A stretch of DNA of 64,000 bases from an uncultured Clostridia bacterium (GTDB lineage Bacteria > Bacillota > Clostridia > TANB77 > CAG-508): the NCBI GenBank assembly GCA_949482135.1, contig CASYFC010000007.1:36922-100921 (forward strand), given 5' to 3'. Under the pieces are notes generated by a model. It saw only the letters and a program-made list of their open reading frames with translations. It was not told where the DNA came from and searched no databases. This document shows, in pieces, positions 6,450-33,475 of the stretch (position 1 is its first letter; each line of letters starts with the position of its first letter). Position numbers and translations under genes: made by a program.

Positions 6450-6499
6450 AAGGCACTAATTGTACTGATATAAAAGATAGTCAGTACAATTAGTGCCTT
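6450..6499 (+). terminator. Strong bidirectional terminator
   Basis: A 19-bp perfect stem (6450-6468 with 6481-6499) and 12-nt loop, followed by TATTTTAT. It closes the TSUP/small-protein unit and may also stop transcription from the minus-strand gene ending at 6584. Confidence 0.85.
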
Positions 6500-6583
6500 A
6501 TTTTATAGGGATCTAATTTAGATTTCCTATTAATTTTATTGCTTACAAAGTTGTATTATAAATTTTTCAACTAAATTTTGTAA

Positions 6584-6994
6584 TTACTCTTCTTCTTTAT
6601 CGAATAATACTTTTGGGCATGGCATTTCTTCTTTTTCACAACAAAGGTCAACACCTTTTAAGCATTTACCTTCATGTTCGCAAACTTTGCAAATTTTTAC
6701 ATGTTTTACTCTGTTTACCCAAATTTCAATTGCATATGATTTATGAGGGCAAAGAGGACCGAAAACAAATTCTCCTTCTTTATCAGTAAAAGTATGAGAA
6801 ACTGGTTTTCTTTCATCTTTACATACTTCGATTAATTTAACAACAGCATCAGATACTGGTTCGCCACAAGAATCTTTTACGATTCCGTATACAACATTTC
6901 TAATATCTTCAGGAAGTCTTAATTCTAAATCGAATTGTTTTCCTTTTTCTATTTTACCATCAACATCAACAATAACTTTTTTATCAAATTCCAT
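6584..6994 (-). CDS. Carboxypeptidase-regulatory-like domain protein with Cys-rich tail
   Basis: 136 residues without a signal peptide. Residues about 30-95 fit a carboxypeptidase regulatory-like (Ig-like beta-sandwich) domain: VYGIVKDSCGEPVSDAVV, then FTDKEGEFVFGPL. The C-terminal third holds seven Cys (KICKVCEHEGKC, DLCCEKEEMPCP), which suggests metal binding or cross-linking. Similar short proteins occur in spore-forming clostridia; a spore or envelope structural role is only an inference. SD AAAGGAG precedes ATG 6994. Confidence 0.75.
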   Translation of the reverse strand: MEFDKKVIVDVDGKIEKGKQFDLELRLPEDIRNVVYGIVKDSCGEPVSDAVVKLIEVCKDERKPVSHTFTDKEGEFVFGPLCPHKSYAIEIWVNRVKHVKICKVCEHEGKCLKGVDLCCEKEEMPCPKVLFDKEEE

Positions 6995-7097
6995 AATAAA
7001 TAAACTCCTTTCAAATTGTCTATATTAAAGTTTATGAATTTGTTATTAATTTTGTTAACATATTATCAATATAAATACTTATTTATTTAAACAAGTT

Positions 7098-7286
7098 TAA
7101 TAAAAGGAATATGATATATATTAATTTTGTAACGCCGCGTAAGCGACCAAACGAACGAAGTGAGTGCGATTTGGAGCAACTATCCTGCTACGGAAATTAT
7201 GGAAAATTTATTTTCTGTAATTTCCAACTAGCGAGTTGCGACACCAAGGTGTGAAGAAATTAATATATATCATATCTCTTTTATTA
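7098..7286. repeat. Palindromic MITE-like or structured RNA element
   Basis: Terminal inverted repeats of about 30 nt (about 7098-7127 and 7257-7286) pair at all but two positions. Inside are four separate hairpins: CCAAA/TTTGG (7148-7173), GGAAATTA/TAATTTCC (7192-7225), CAACT-AGCG-AGTTG (7225-7238) and ACACC-AA-GGTGT (7241-7252). The interior is GC-rich against an AT-rich background. It has no coding potential. It is probably a non-autonomous repeat; only one copy is visible in this window. Confidence 0.6.
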
Positions 7287-7435
7287 AGTTATTTAATATA
7301 AGGGAGAATTAGATATTGCTAATATTTACAAATTTAACAATTTGAAGTAAAATGTATAAGAAATTGAACAAATTTGCATATAATATATTGGTAAATTGTT
7401 TTTATTTATCAGAAAGTATGAAGGGAAAATTGATA

Positions 7436-8821
7436 ATGGATTTTTGTGAATTAAGAGAAAAATACCCTAAGTTTATATATAATGATTACAAAATAGAAGA
7501 ATTGCAAGACAAAATTGTTATAGAATATGATTTTGAAATAGAAGGATTAACAAAGTTTAATCCTAGAATTGAAATCTTAAAAAAAGATTTTAATTTTAAA
7601 AGTATAAATTCAAATGTTGTAAAAAATATAGTTTTTAATTTGGGAATGGTTGAGTCAATAAGTTATTTCAAATCTACATGTTCTCCACAATTTTTTATAA
7701 AATGTGGAAAACTAGATGAGTTTCAAGAAAAATGGTTTAAAAAATTATTTTATTTAGGATTAGGTGAATTTAGATTTATAAATAACATAAAAATTGAACA
7801 AAATGAATTAGTAGATTTTGTGTCAACTGGAGAAAGTATTGAAGTAGAACAAGTAGAGGATGCTTTATCAGGATGTGTTATACCAGTTGGTGGTGGAAAA
7901 GATTCTAATGTAACTTTAGATTTATTAAAAGATTATAAAGATGATTCTCTTGCTTTTATGATTGGTGGCAAAAAAGTATCTATAGATTGTGCAAAAGCTT
8001 TTGGGTATTCAGATAATCAAATTATTGAGCTAAAAAGAGTAATTGATAAAAATTTATTAGAGTTAAATAAAAAAGGATTTCTAAATGGTCATACTCCATT
8101 TTCTGCAATTGTTGCTTTTTTATCATATTTATGTTCATATCTTTTAGGAAAAAAATATATAACACTGTCAAATGAAGAGAGTGCAAATGAAAGTAATGTT
8201 GATGGAGAGAATATTAATCATCAATATTCAAAAACAATAGAATTTGAGAATGATTTTAGAGAATATGCACAAAAAAAGTTAAAAGCAAATGTTGAATATT
8301 TTAGTTTGCTAAGGCCTATAAGTGAACTTCAAATTGCAATGCTTTTTTCAAAAATAGAGAAATGTCACAATATTTTTAAAAGCTGTAATGTAGGAAGTAA
8401 AAGCCAACCATGGATTTGGTGCTGTAGTTGCCCTAAATGTTTATTTGTTTATACAATATTAAGTCCATTTTTATATAAAGAAAAATTAGTAAATATTTTT
8501 GGAGAAGATTTATTTGAAAAAGAAAGTTTATTAGAGACTTTTATAGAATTATGTGGATATGGAGAAACTAAACCATTTGAATGTGTTGGAACATATAGTG
8601 AGATAAGATTTGCAATTACAAAAACAATTGAAAATATGAAAAACCAAAAATTACCTTACTTATTAGAATATTATAAAAATCATTTTGAATTATCTAAAGA
8701 ACAATTACTTGAATTTTATAATGAAAATAATAATCTACCAGAACAATTTGAAAAGATTTTAAAAAATAAATTAAGAAGGAGAACATATGTTAAAAGAACT
8801 ATTAGATTATTTAAAAGATAA
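7436..8821 (+). CDS. murL: UDP-MurNAc-L-Ala-L-Glu epimerase MurL
   Basis: MurL converts UDP-MurNAc-L-Ala-L-Glu to the D-Glu form in an ATP-dependent step, as established for the MurD2/MurL pair of Xanthomonas oryzae. About 461 residues. The N-terminal domain starts DFCELREKYPKFIY. An ATP-pyrophosphatase-like P-loop, VIPVGGGKDSNVTLDLL, lies near residue 150, followed by the family segment LSNEESANESN and a Cys pair region WCCSCPKC. ATG 7436 is preferred because SD AAGGGA precedes it; an upstream Met at 7352 would add 28 residues. It overlaps murD2 by 35 nt, which strongly supports the assignment. Confidence 0.85.
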   Translation: MDFCELREKYPKFIYNDYKIEELQDKIVIEYDFEIEGLTKFNPRIEILKKDFNFKSINSNVVKNIVFNLGMVESISYFKSTCSPQFFIKCGKLDEFQEKWFKKLFYLGLGEFRFINNIKIEQNELVDFVSTGESIEVEQVEDALSGCVIPVGGGKDSNVTLDLLKDYKDDSLAFMIGGKKVSIDCAKAFGYSDNQIIELKRVIDKNLLELNKKGFLNGHTPFSAIVAFLSYLCSYLLGKKYITLSNEESANESNVDGENINHQYSKTIEFENDFREYAQKKLKANVEYFSLLRPISELQIAMLFSKIEKCHNIFKSCNVGSKSQPWIWCCSCPKCLFVYTILSPFLYKEKLVNIFGEDLFEKESLLETFIELCGYGETKPFECVGTYSEIRFAITKTIENMKNQKLPYLLEYYKNHFELSKEQLLEFYNENNNLPEQFEKILKNKLRRRTYVKRTIRLFKR

Positions 8822-30013: not shown

Positions 30014-30019
30014 TTAGCA

Positions 30020-30055
30020 AAAGAATCTATTTCTCCGAAAATAGATTCTTTTTGT
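30020..30055 (+). terminator. Terminator of leuS
   Basis: Stem AAAGAATCTATTT (30020-30032) with AAATAGATTCTTT (30039-30051), then T. Confidence 0.85.
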
Positions 30056-30069
30056 ATGTTTACATAATG

Positions 30070-30098
30070 TTGACTTTTGAGATACTTTATTATATAAT
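30070..30098 (+). promoter_or_regulatory. Strong promoter of the radical SAM/peptide unit
   Basis: TTGACT (30070-30075), 17-nt spacer, TATAAT (30093-30098). It leaves a 5' UTR of about 110 nt in which I see no clear structure. Confidence 0.8.
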
Positions 30099-30216
30099 AT
30101 TTGATAGTTAAATTTTATATTATATCCAATAAGAATAATCTAGGATAATTTATAGTTTTTATTTTGGCACTTATGTAACAAATTAATGGTTTATTCAATT
30201 AAAAAGGAGAGAGATT

Positions 30217-31107
30217 ATGGTTAGAGACTTTACAATTGGAAGAAGTGATTTTTCTGTTACAGTATATGTACCATGGAACTGTACAAATAACTGCAAATTT
30301 TGTTCTTCAAAAAAAGATTATGAAAGAATTAAAAGTAATTTTGAAAGACTGAAGGAAAGTTTGCGGTTAATACGGGATTCGTTTTTACCAATAGTTGTTT
30401 TTACAGGAGGAGAGCCAAGTTCAGATATTGATAAACTGCGGGAACTGCTTAAGATTGTTGACAATAAAATAGTTTATATCAATACAAGTTTGCCAAAGAG
30501 AAATTGCAGAGAATTTATAGAGATTGTGAATTCTACAGAATGTATTAGAAGCATTAGTATTTCTCGGCATTGTCATACGTTTGAGCAGGACTCTGAGATT
30601 CTGTATCAAATTGCAGAAGATGAGGTAATTGCAACAATCAAAAAGCCAGTAAGAATTAATGTTGTAGCTCAGAATGAAGATTCTTTTTCTGCAGACAGTT
30701 TGAGGAAATATGTTAGCAGATGGACAAGAATTGCGAAAATGAAAGGTGGACCGAATTCGCTACTCTTAAATCTTAGAGGTAACTATGTTACTCAAAGTAA
30801 AGCTGATCTTCATGAGATGACTGATAGTAAAGAAATTAACGTTTTGGCAAGCAATTATTACTATCAATCTCATAGTTTTTGCAATGTTTGTGACACATGT
30901 ACTTTTATCAAATTTGATGAAAATCGTCAGGAAGAACTGGTAATAAATTATCACCGTGGAGTAATGACGACAGCAATTAGATTTGCAGACATTGTAGAAA
31001 TTAATGACCTGATTATATTTCAAAATGGAGATATATGTTATGATTGGGATGGCAAGAATGAAAATATATCGACATTTTTGAATATGATAAACCCCAAAAA
31101 ACAATAA
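30217..31107 (+). CDS. Radical SAM enzyme, putative peptide maturase
   Basis: 296 residues. The [4Fe-4S]-SAM motif is CTNNCKFC (Cys22, Cys26, Cys29), with the GGE motif in VFTGGEP at 64-66, so it should cleave SAM to the deoxyadenosyl radical. A second Cys group, C222NVC225DTC228 with C274, could hold an auxiliary cluster. The C-terminal EINDLIIFQNGDICYDWDG block is conserved-looking, but I cannot name its subfamily. A 72-residue Cys/Gly-repeat peptide gene follows 13 nt downstream, so the enzyme probably modifies that peptide. Codons (CGG, CTG) differ from the core. Start ATG 30217 has SD GGAGAGAG. Confidence 0.85.
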   Translation: MVRDFTIGRSDFSVTVYVPWNCTNNCKFCSSKKDYERIKSNFERLKESLRLIRDSFLPIVVFTGGEPSSDIDKLRELLKIVDNKIVYINTSLPKRNCREFIEIVNSTECIRSISISRHCHTFEQDSEILYQIAEDEVIATIKKPVRINVVAQNEDSFSADSLRKYVSRWTRIAKMKGGPNSLLLNLRGNYVTQSKADLHEMTDSKEINVLASNYYYQSHSFCNVCDTCTFIKFDENRQEELVINYHRGVMTTAIRFADIVEINDLIIFQNGDICYDWDGKNENISTFLNMINPKKQ

Positions 31108-31120
31108 GGAGGTAAACATT

Positions 31121-31339
31121 ATGTCATGTGGTGGTTCCCCGGAATTGAGGATTCCAATTAGCTCAGGAGGTTGTGGTAGTTCAACTAGGTATTTGTATGT
31201 TTCTGAACGCAGTAGAGGATGCGGAGGAAGCGAAACGATTTTTTCTGTGGATTCTGGAGGATGCGGAGGAAGGGTTCCTGCATCGAACAACGATATCAGA
31301 CGGGCTTTTGAGAATCAGAGAAGAAACCGTGAATGGTAA
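31121..31339 (+). CDS. CGG-repeat peptide, putative RiPP precursor
   Basis: 72 residues with four evenly spaced Cys-Gly motifs: SCGGS (Cys3), GGCGSS (Cys18), GCGGS (Cys34) and GGCGGR (Cys48), at intervals of 15, 16 and 14. A charged Asn/Arg-rich C-terminus (DIRRAFENQRRNREW) follows. There is no signal peptide. SD AAGGAGG lies just before ATG 31121. Its position directly after a radical SAM enzyme, under the same promoter and terminator, suggests a substrate for Cys-based modification such as thioether formation. No protease or exporter gene is adjacent. Confidence 0.75.
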   Translation: MSCGGSPELRIPISSGGCGSSTRYLYVSERSRGCGGSETIFSVDSGGCGGRVPASNNDIRRAFENQRRNREW

Positions 31340-31367
31340 GCAAAGAAAATAAAAACTGAATATTGGG

Positions 31368-31395
31368 AAGAGAGCGCTATAGTTAGCGCTCTTTT
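31368..31395 (+). terminator. Terminator of the radical SAM/peptide unit
   Basis: Stem AGAGCGCTA (31370-31378) with TAGCGCTCT (31383-31391), then TTT. Confidence 0.85.
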
Positions 31396-31406
31396 CCATT
31401 TTATAT

Positions 31407-31982
31407 TTAATACTTTAAATTTGCTATTTGCTTTGCTAGTGTTTCATAGTTTGGTTTATATTTTTTTAACATATCATAAAAACTTTTTGTATGATTTTTG
31501 AATTTTAGATGACAGAACTCATGGAATATAATATATTCGATAATATCTTTTGAATATCTAACTATATAAGGATTTATAGTGAATACTTGCAAGTCTTTAT
31601 TACATGTTGCTAAAGCTCCTGAAATTTTTTTTATTTCATAATCTTCTGGAGCAAAATCGAATTCATGCCTTGCTTTTTCCATAATGTTTTCAATTTCATT
31701 TTCTGCAATTTTTATATACATTTTTAATAAAATTATATTTATTAATTCTTGATTATCTTTTTTTCTATAGGTAATAGGTAGATGAATATTTATACAATTT
31801 TTTTCTAAGTTTAATTCTGGTGAATTTATTCTTAAATAATAGATATTTACAGAATAATTTAAACCAAATATTTTTGCAAATTTTGGTTGTAAAGTTTCAT
31901 CTTTTCCAAATAAAAAGTTATCATTACTTAATTCCATTTTTTCCTTTGTATTAGCTGATTTTACTAGTTTTAAAATATTCAT
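31407..31982 (-). CDS. YgjP-type (DUF45) zinc metallopeptidase
   Basis: 191 residues, cytoplasmic. The zinc site is IIFHEFCHLKFKNHTKSFY near residue 150: HExxH with a third His eight residues later and the family-typical NHT.SFY. This is the M48-like YgjP/DUF45 (SprT-related) family, often of unknown substrate and sometimes found beside restriction systems. It has its own promoter flanked by GTTCG/CGAAC repeats. Codons are those of the core. Confidence 0.85.
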   Translation of the reverse strand: MNILKLVKSANTKEKMELSNDNFLFGKDETLQPKFAKIFGLNYSVNIYYLRINSPELNLEKNCINIHLPITYRKKDNQELINIILLKMYIKIAENEIENIMEKARHEFDFAPEDYEIKKISGALATCNKDLQVFTINPYIVRYSKDIIEYIIFHEFCHLKFKNHTKSFYDMLKKYKPNYETLAKQIANLKY

Positions 31983-32242: not shown

Positions 32243-33475
32243 TTAGGAAATTTTGATGGTTTTGCCATTAGCCAAAACCACAGTTGTGGTAAGCCCGACA
32301 TCGTTCGTTCTGAAACTGCTTGCTCCAGTACAAACACGTTTCATGCTTGTAGGAGAGGAAATGGTAGCCTTGTAGACTCTTCCGTTCCTGATATAGCAGA
32401 ATGTTGTTTCAGAGATGAAGCCGAATGCAGAAACCGTGTCGTTAACCTCTTTACCATCCAAGGTCAGTACACCATTTGTGAGTGTCAAAGTATGACTCTC
32501 AACAGTATTTTTGATGTACAAGGTTGCATAGGTATCCTTGGTTACCACGTACGTTTTGCTAGCCACCCACTTATCAGAAGAGGTGAGCTGTTTGATAGAA
32601 TAGGTCTCATTTTCAGATACAATCTGGCTGATGAATCCATTCTCGTCTGTTTTATACGTTTTGAACGCACTTCCGAGAGAGACTTTCTCAGCAAAGTACC
32701 AGTTGCCGAACTTGAAGCGATACAGAGTACCGTTGGTCTCATAGAGATACACGTTATAATCAGGGTCGATACCCATGAATTTTACACCCTTCAAGATGTC
32801 GGAGAGACGAACACCATCAGTAACATTCAGAATGTGCTTACCATTTGGGCTGAGGATGATACTTACCTTGAGGGTATTACCCTGATAGGCATCATATACC
32901 ATTTCTTCAGCAGAGTTGGTATACACTTCCACTCTGTTGTTCTTATTGGTGTTGTTAGGAAGGTTCGGTTGGTTGTCTGTGTTGTTGTCCGTGTCAGAAA
33001 CATCTTTCCAGTCGGAAAGAGATTTTGTGCCGGAAGAAGTTTTGACGCTTACTGCTAAATCATCAGAGTTGTAGCAAAGCTCAATAGCTCCGGAATTGAG
33101 AACGGTGATTACTTTGTTGTTACCGCCGATTCCCAGCAGTTCTCCTTTGCTGGTAATTGCATAGAATACACCTTCGGTGTTGAAGCCATTGTACCGATAC
33201 CCGGATCCTGCCGAAGAACTGGTTACAACAGTACCATTACTGAAGGAAACTGTATTCCCACTGCTGTAGAAGGTACGTTTTGCAACGTAGGAATCCTTCA
33301 AGCTGTTGTAGTAAAAGTACTTGTAGACAGTTCGATTGCTTGCCGCATCATCGTATGTGTAGCCATATGGCGGATCATTCGTATTAGCGGCGAAAGCTGT
33401 GGTAGTGCAACCGAGGATGCAGGTCATGACCAGCACCAGTGTGAGGAATTTGCTAATGATCGAAGTTTTTTTCAT
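32243..33475 (-). CDS. Secreted beta-rich protein, 410 aa
   Basis: A signal peptide (about 1-29, LTLVLVMTCILGCTTTAFA) is followed by an extracellular protein made of short beta-strand repeats such as NGTLYRFKFGNWYFAEKV and NGRVYKATISSPTSM, with an Asn/Asp-rich linker near residue 165-185. No cell-wall anchor or catalytic motif is visible. A propeller or solenoid binding protein is a guess. Clearly higher GC and mixed Arg codons set it apart from the flanking genes, marking it as an inserted cassette with its own promoter and terminator. Confidence 0.8.
   Translation of the reverse strand: MKKTSIISKFLTLVLVMTCILGCTTTAFAANTNDPPYGYTYDDAASNRTVYKYFYYNSLKDSYVAKRTFYSSGNTVSFSNGTVVTSSSAGSGYRYNGFNTEGVFYAITSKGELLGIGGNNKVITVLNSGAIELCYNSDDLAVSVKTSSGTKSLSDWKDVSDTDNNTDNQPNLPNNTNKNNRVEVYTNSAEEMVYDAYQGNTLKVSIILSPNGKHILNVTDGVRLSDILKGVKFMGIDPDYNVYLYETNGTLYRFKFGNWYFAEKVSLGSAFKTYKTDENGFISQIVSENETYSIKQLTSSDKWVASKTYVVTKDTYATLYIKNTVESHTLTLTNGVLTLDGKEVNDTVSAFGFISETTFCYIRNGRVYKATISSPTSMKRVCTGASSFRTNDVGLTTTVVLANGKTIKIS

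Follow-up and report, generated by a model that had tools for sequence, protein, structure and literature searches.

Whether a radical SAM protein and a small cysteine- and glycine-containing peptide encoded by adjoining genes represent a maturase and its substrate is the question raised by a locus in an uncultured Clostridia bacterium. The locus lies within a 64,000-nucleotide stretch of DNA, here called the window, for which a sequence-only reading had proposed such a relationship and had described the peptide as a four-fold CGG repeat. Both open reading frames (ORFs), the radical SAM and GGE motifs, the four additional cysteines of the enzyme and a gap of 13 nt between the genes were found as described (Table 1), as was a promoter-like site where a strong promoter had been claimed. 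A single hairpin is also present in place of the claimed GC-rich terminator (14 pairs; one found versus 0.3 expected in the hairpin scan), "GC-rich" being a slight overstatement for a stem with 7 G-C pairs. Foreign codon use, likewise claimed, stood up in part: the GC3 of the enzyme gene (0.243) exceeds the range of 25 of the 27 other non-overlapping window ORFs of at least 250 aa (0.09–0.154), but two ORFs at 32243–33475 and 72–980, with GC3 of 0.505 and 0.46 the most deviant in codon use among the long ORFs, depart far more. With a GC3 of 0.173 for the enzyme gene of a close relative (locus L020, see below), a foreign origin is possible, but the case for it is not strong.

Table 1. Features of the two-gene unit in window coordinates
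Feature	Position	Strand	Basis or remark
Promoter-like TTGACT-17-TATAAT	30070..30098	+	11/12 consensus matches
Ribosome-binding-like AAGGAG, enzyme gene	30204..30209	+	Read from sequence
Radical SAM protein (296 aa), putative maturase	30217..31107	+	ORF; Pfam Radical_SAM match
CTNNCKFC (C22-TNN-C26-KF-C29), radical SAM [4Fe-4S] motif	30280..30303	+	Read from sequence
GGE motif, residues 64–66	30406..30414	+	Read from sequence, alignment
CNVCDTC (C222, C225, C228)	30880..30900	+	C225 marks the peptide-linked clade, C228 its bacterial group only
C274, possible fourth ligand	31036..31038	+	Present in bacterial group and L077
Ribosome-binding-like AAGGAGGT, peptide gene	31106..31113	+	Read from sequence; similar in L021, L005 and L020
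72-aa Cys-Gly peptide, putative substrate	31121..31339	+	ORF, conserved in relatives
Terminator-like hairpin after peptide gene, closing the two-gene unit	31366..31397	+	Hairpin scan

The window peptide carries cysteines at positions 3, 18, 34 and 48, each followed by glycine, and the resulting spacing of 15, 16 and 14 residues agrees with the 14–16 residues originally read; four CG dipeptides were reached in 10 of 20,000 shuffles of the peptide's letters. An N-terminal leader is absent from the bacterial peptide, and the bacterial peptides share a conserved C-terminal stretch, ASxxDIxxxFxxxRxxR. Searches of NCBIfam, Pfam, PHROGs, PADLOC, the PDB and the plasmid and phage collections returned no match to the peptide. 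With four cysteines in 72 residues and no NCBIfam match, it is not a SCIFF peptide, for which six cysteines in forty-five residues are expected; to the sequence-only reading, too, it had not looked like one.

The window enzyme belongs to the radical SAM superfamily (Pfam PF04055, 32.6 bits; cut-off 29.5), and every one of the 29 aligned enzymes, that of the window among them, keeps all three cysteines of the CxxxCxxC motif. Of the family cut-offs, the window enzyme passes only the general Radical_SAM one, and Radical_SAM and Fer4_12 are its only Pfam domains. Its best NCBIfam match, to HxsC of the His-Xaa-Ser system (TIGR03977; 27.1 bits over residues 14–87), falls far below the cut-off of 267.9, which rejects membership, and the peptide is without His-Xaa-Ser repeats. 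None of the NCBIfam maturase models scored above cut-off for the scanned enzymes of this family, and Pfam SPASM matched neither the window enzyme nor its scanned relatives; ahead of its radical SAM motif, the window enzyme has too few residues to accommodate an RRE. The four C-terminal cysteines of the window enzyme could represent an unrecognised twitch-like site.

Close relatives and a variable chromosomal site

Three close homologues of the window enzyme were found, at loci L020 (genome G045; 79% identity), L021 (G783; 71%) and L005 (G077; 66%). In all four loci, window included, the peptide gene directly follows the enzyme gene, with gaps of 22, 20 and 13 nt in L020, L021 and L005, respectively, and each of the four enzyme-carrying genomes contains exactly one peptide match. 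The four peptides are 58–70% identical and contain four or five cysteines. For both genes pS exceeds pN in six of six pairs, showing that both are under purifying selection; for the peptide gene, dS is saturated in a single pair and 0.92–1.64 in the other five, with dN of 0.2–0.53. Homologues consistently lacking a peptide had been named as a finding that would refute the proposal, and none of the four close ones lacks it. A short precursor gene adjoining its modifying enzyme and conserved together with it, as looked for in RiPP systems, is thus seen at 4/4 close loci and, counted strictly, in 11 of the 16 members of the motif-bearing clade described below. With only four bacterial members, from one order as far as they have been placed, the co-occurrence may reflect a small number of events.

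The four close loci occupy three chromosomal sites. The window and L020 share a site flanked by leuS and a YgjP-like gene (flanking genes here and below were named by eye), another gene pair flanks L021, and a ZIP-like transporter gene flanks L005/L035, with ParB-like and helicase-like genes further off. No third gene common to the four loci was seen in the stretches viewed and, in keeping with the original description, this includes any protease or exporter gene. A promoter-like site with 12/12 matches precedes the enzyme gene of L005 (2464–2436), while L020 and L021 have weaker promoter-like sites only; the hairpin scan found a terminator behind the peptide gene also in L021, but none on the coding strand in L020 or L005. 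As a separate observation, L020 encodes, 1.3 kb past the peptide (6497–8584), a 146-aa protein and, next to it, a radical SAM/SPASM protein of 543 aa, which scores 283 bits against TIGR04133 (cut-off 425) and, in its C-terminal part, 15.3 against Prok-JAB (cut-off 25). This pair was not seen at the same site in the window.

Searches of genomes with the bacterial profile (E up to 1e-8) found the enzyme in 2 of 385 genomes of the order (own and G077) and in 5 of 391 genomes of the class, the own match being close and four distant. Around G077, 1 of 28 and 1 of 36 genomes matched, G077 itself both times; around G783, matches came from 3 of 241 genomes, namely G783, G947 (same place as G077) and G985 (same place as the distant G410). 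When E values up to 1e-3 were admitted, 16 of 96 genomes matched, strongly only in the own genome, G045 and G077. The peptide was found in 1 of 398 genomes of the phylum (own) and in 2 of 191 genomes of the order, the same two that the enzyme search of 385 had returned. Among genomes with a close match, to which this statement is limited and whose drawn sets may overlap, none was seen with one gene and without the other.

The YgjP-like neighbour served as query in 53 genomes for a test within the genus; 50 matched and 30 loci were examined, two of them carriers of the cassette. In 12 of the other 28 loci leuS lies within the flank, and none of these 12 has the cassette; the 16 without leuS in the flank are uninformative. 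Between leuS and the YgjP-like gene, five of the 12 show no ORF longer than 45 aa (gaps of 167–500 nt), six an acetyltransferase-like gene (by eye) and one another ORF. The segment corresponding to window positions 30014–31409 is thus a variable spot, the 14 judgeable loci comprising five empty, six acetyltransferase-like, one other and two cassette-bearing cases. Absence from 12/12 judgeable non-carriers rejects a core gene of the genus and identifies an accessory unit. The cassette is a rare accessory gene pair in gut Clostridia, with accessory status shown at one site.

A wider family on viral contigs

Viral scans with the bacterial alignments alone gave no relative. A scan of IMG/VR with a ten-row alignment (A4) returned 23 loci, L092–L095 among them as partial matches, L103, L104 and L111 came from a second scan, and another one recovered the contigs already known; viral status here follows the IMG/VR classing of the contigs, which reach 415,750 bases. 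The viral-contig relatives are 26–36% identical, and those at L073–L086, L103, L104 and L111 contain C222-x-V-C225. When 26 enzymes, clustered at 85%, were placed in a tree, the 16 with C-x-V-C parted from the 10 lacking it at a branch supported 100/100. All four bacterial rows group together (100/100), with L073 as the nearest viral row (92/89), and relatives of the C225 clade were found mostly on contigs classed as viral. Within this clade C222 and C225 are present in 16/16 rows, C228 in 4/16 and C274 in 5/16. The suggestion that C222, C225, C228 and C274 are ligands of an auxiliary cluster hence stays plausible for the bacterial group but does not describe a trait of the family, as only C222 and C225 are constant.

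Possession of the motif goes together with possession of a Cys-Gly partner, which most C225 enzymes have and the ten clusters lacking C225 do not, in line with the co-occurrence anticipated from the window. Eleven of the 16 motif clusters have a same-strand Cys-Gly ORF downstream, three have tails on the enzyme itself, one has an opposite-strand ORF (in one of its two contigs) and one has none. The same-strand downstream partner is thus present in 11/16 with the motif versus 0/10 without it (Fisher 7e-4); when enzyme tails and the opposite-strand ORF of L104 are included, in a broad class defined after the data had been seen, the counts are 15/16 versus 0/10 (Fisher 2e-6). Since the rows are related and the Fisher test treats them as independent, these numbers describe a clade-wide pattern rather than independent events. 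In the 11 partner peptides, 62 of 71 cysteines are followed by glycine and 39 are preceded by it. The constant feature is therefore Cys-Gly, found at every window cysteine, rather than the CGG repeat first described.

The downstream Cys-Gly-rich ORFs of L074–L081, L083 and L084 are 50–142 aa long, with tandem units in some (L077, L084); in L078 one ORF intervenes between enzyme and peptide. The L021 peptide, whose longer start overlaps the enzyme, was missed by the density scan and counted from its locus. Enzymes L073, L082 and L111 have two or three Gly-adjacent cysteines within their last 60 residues, and L079–L081 and L083 have a second Cys-Gly-rich protein on the other strand. The opposite-strand ORF of L104 is below the density threshold (6 of 220 residues). 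L103 and L104 are closely related phage-like regions, and the 220-aa Cys-Gly-containing protein stands behind the enzyme only in L104. In L085/L086 and L103 the motif is present and the examined stretch contains no Cys-Gly ORF. Elsewhere, Cys-Gly-rich ORFs above threshold were limited to two (L024, L033) in 32 loci. L079 and L084 encode enzymes with 73% identity, followed by peptides that, unaligned and judged by eye, seem to differ for the most part.

The relatives without C225 comprise bacterial-looking L024, L025 and L030–L033 (26–31%) and viral L087–L091. Common to them are the radical SAM half and, near residues 259–273 of the window enzyme, a C-terminal stretch. No Cys-Gly-rich ORF lies within 1.5 kb downstream of these enzymes (0/11 loci), and L090 has one Gly-adjacent cysteine in its last 60 residues. 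Plasmids gave no match to the enzyme, and the phage collection gave two, both in "UNVERIFIED Bacteriophage sp." records and in the motif-less clade. These records, L024 and L025 (MT838682.1, MT837485.1), resemble pieces of bacterial chromosome; a similar ORF, DUF5662-like by eye, precedes the radical SAM gene in both. A known phage defence system was rejected, as neither enzyme nor peptide has a PADLOC match.

Candidate chemistry and known systems

With the pair intact at 4/4 close loci and most C225 enzymes partnered, the maturase-and-substrate layout originally proposed is the best reading, from which we infer modification of the peptide itself. We consider it likely that the two genes form a RiPP-like unit in which the small protein encoded directly behind the enzyme would be its substrate, acted on at the Cys-Gly units. 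Members of the radical SAM family cleave SAM to a 5'-deoxyadenosyl radical; judging from the family, C22, C26 and C29 would bind the one [4Fe-4S] cluster for this step. The C222-x-V-C225 site, joined by C228 and C274 in the bacterial group, may hold an auxiliary cluster or position a substrate cysteine; in the bacterial enzymes, four extra cysteines would be enough for one such cluster. Viral enzymes have two constant cysteines and thus no four-Cys cluster by cysteines alone, so that other residues or the substrate may complete the site, or it may act as hydrogen donor. Since the peptide lacks an ordinary N-terminal leader, it probably docks through its conserved C-terminal stretch. The product would most probably contain a bond from the cysteine sulfur to carbon, or a change at the α-carbon of the cysteine or the next glycine, repeated per unit. 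According to the sections of PMC8326336 drawn on here, auxiliary clusters are essential for modification and not for SAM cleavage, and in CteB the auxiliary cluster has been proposed to bind the donor cysteine.

Formation of thioethers, in which the sulfur of a substrate cysteine held on the auxiliary cluster would be linked to a carbon of a neighbouring residue, is the leading chemistry for such a unit, though we advance it tentatively. Cysteine-sulfur to carbon thioether links are found in sactipeptides and ranthipeptides; cysteine is the constant residue of the partner peptides, the bacterial enzyme group has four extra cysteines, and the CteB proposal (PMC8326336, in part) fits this arrangement. 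The lack of a Pfam SPASM match and of any NCBIfam maturase model above cut-off in the family argues against it, as does the constancy of only two extra cysteines in the clade. Epimerization would instead introduce D-amino acids in or around the Cys-Gly units or in the intervening stretches, an enzyme cysteine donating the hydrogen as in EpeE/YydG, which has two clusters; epimerases use a critical cysteine (PMC8326336, same sections). In the PDB, the bacterial profile does match YydG (8ai1–8ai6) best (E 7e-4), but over residues 14–129, the N-terminal part, only; with the ten-row profile viperin scores above it, and the window unit has no peptide or leader resembling those of the YydG system. 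Membership of the YydG family (TIGR04078) was rejected: the model is missing from the window enzyme's NCBIfam matches (E up to 1), and the L079 enzyme scores 17.1 bits with it (cut-off 300). Epimerization, moreover, requires no substrate cysteine, yet Cys-Gly is constant, and we regard it as decidedly unlikely.

The small protein might also remain unmodified and serve the enzyme as a metal-binding, redox or structural partner or as a carrier. Cys-Gly-rich tails can bind metals, and no leader, protease or exporter was seen in the bacterial unit, which would suit such a role. On the other hand, partner sequences vary widely with Cys-Gly kept (by eye), and the tails carried by the L073, L082 and L111 enzymes themselves fit a substrate better than a folded partner, so that we hold this explanation to be unlikely. 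A spurious peptide ORF, or one with no link to the enzyme, might be argued from there being only four bacterial cases, but this is close to refuted: the coding sequence is conserved in 4/4 close relatives with pS > pN, excluding a spurious ORF, and the pattern recurs in the phage-like clade with other peptides.

The nearest precedent in design for the maturase-and-substrate unit is the TvgA/TvgB pair, which, in the portion of PMC9062424 used here, came out of a survey of family IPR023867, was found by neighbourhood and was then proved. Like the window pair, it combines a radical SAM enzyme with a small peptide of repeated units; it differs in its TVGG units, its poly-cyclopropylglycine product and its five-gene cluster with an oxidase and peptidase/transporters. 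The window peptide lacks TVGG repeats and is not a TvgA-type precursor. Sactipeptide and ranthipeptide systems, SCIFF included, resemble the window pair in joining a cysteine-containing peptide with a radical SAM maturase. Many RiPP radical SAM enzymes carry an RRE and SPASM or twitch domains (PMC8326336, in part), whereas the window enzyme has no Pfam SPASM match and too short an N-terminus for an RRE; in the want of a SPASM/twitch domain, membership among these maturases was rejected. The CXXX-repeat (TIGR04115), Cys-every-fifth (NF038107) and ACGX (TIGR04340) systems are, by their NCBI names, maturases of peptides with cysteine repeats or motifs. The NCBIfam matches of the window enzyme (E up to 1) include none of the three models, and L079 scores 17.8 bits against TIGR04115 (cut-off 350).

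Descriptions of this enzyme-peptide pair, or of a phage radical enzyme altering the phage's own small proteins, were not found in the open-licence literature. The enzyme is of a known kind; what looks new is the family, together with its phage setting. If the maturase-and-substrate reading is true, this would be a radical SAM family with a simple Cys-Gly unit as target, no SPASM match and two genes, the last two features making it easy to rebuild and assay. Large phages would then own a radical enzyme devoted to modifying their small proteins, and the phage-like and bacterial versions would permit a direct comparison of substrate rules.

Phage leader proteins and a second subfamily

In the 415,750-base record of L080 and in L140–L150, many different proteins begin with a leader, MNLxEAKxxLKxxGYxxxxxE, that resembles a capsid-targeting propeptide; the start MNLxEAKxxLKxxGY is common to many kinds of protein in this record and in related contigs (L079, L083, L084). 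A pattern search of the examined loci yielded 15 such leaders, a biased sample, as they were drawn from loci matching the first ones. In 14 of the 15, xE occurs near position 20; five read LNE-CG, four of which run on into a Cys-Gly-rich stretch. The capsid-targeting propeptides of T4 are 10–20 residues long, and cleavage by the prohead protease follows Glu in T4 and in several giant phages (PMC5694885, in the parts consulted). The leader pattern and the cleavage after Glu in giant phages make packaging and injection a testable idea and no more. As a whole, the scenario of a class of Cys-Gly-altering radical SAM maturases, so far undescribed and carried largely by phages, with the leader proteins of some large phages perhaps packed into the head, cut after Glu and injected, and with the Clostridia cassette as an offshoot, is one that we put forward as rather doubtful.

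Cys-Gly tails beside radical SAM genes extend beyond one subfamily. At L093 a different radical SAM protein is followed by a 92-aa Cys-Gly peptide and adjoins baseplate-like genes (by eye). Together with L151–L157, this locus (L093:2999–4265) represents another radical SAM subfamily, likewise from viral contigs. Its enzymes are 83–100% identical to that of L093, and a Cys-Gly-rich peptide is present in seven of seven contigs, L093 included. These peptides combine a conserved N-terminal part of about 45 residues with a variable Cys-Gly-rich end, the usual look of leader and core in RiPP precursors. At L095/L158, a 118-aa protein ending in SSCGSGLGSSC stands before the enzyme.
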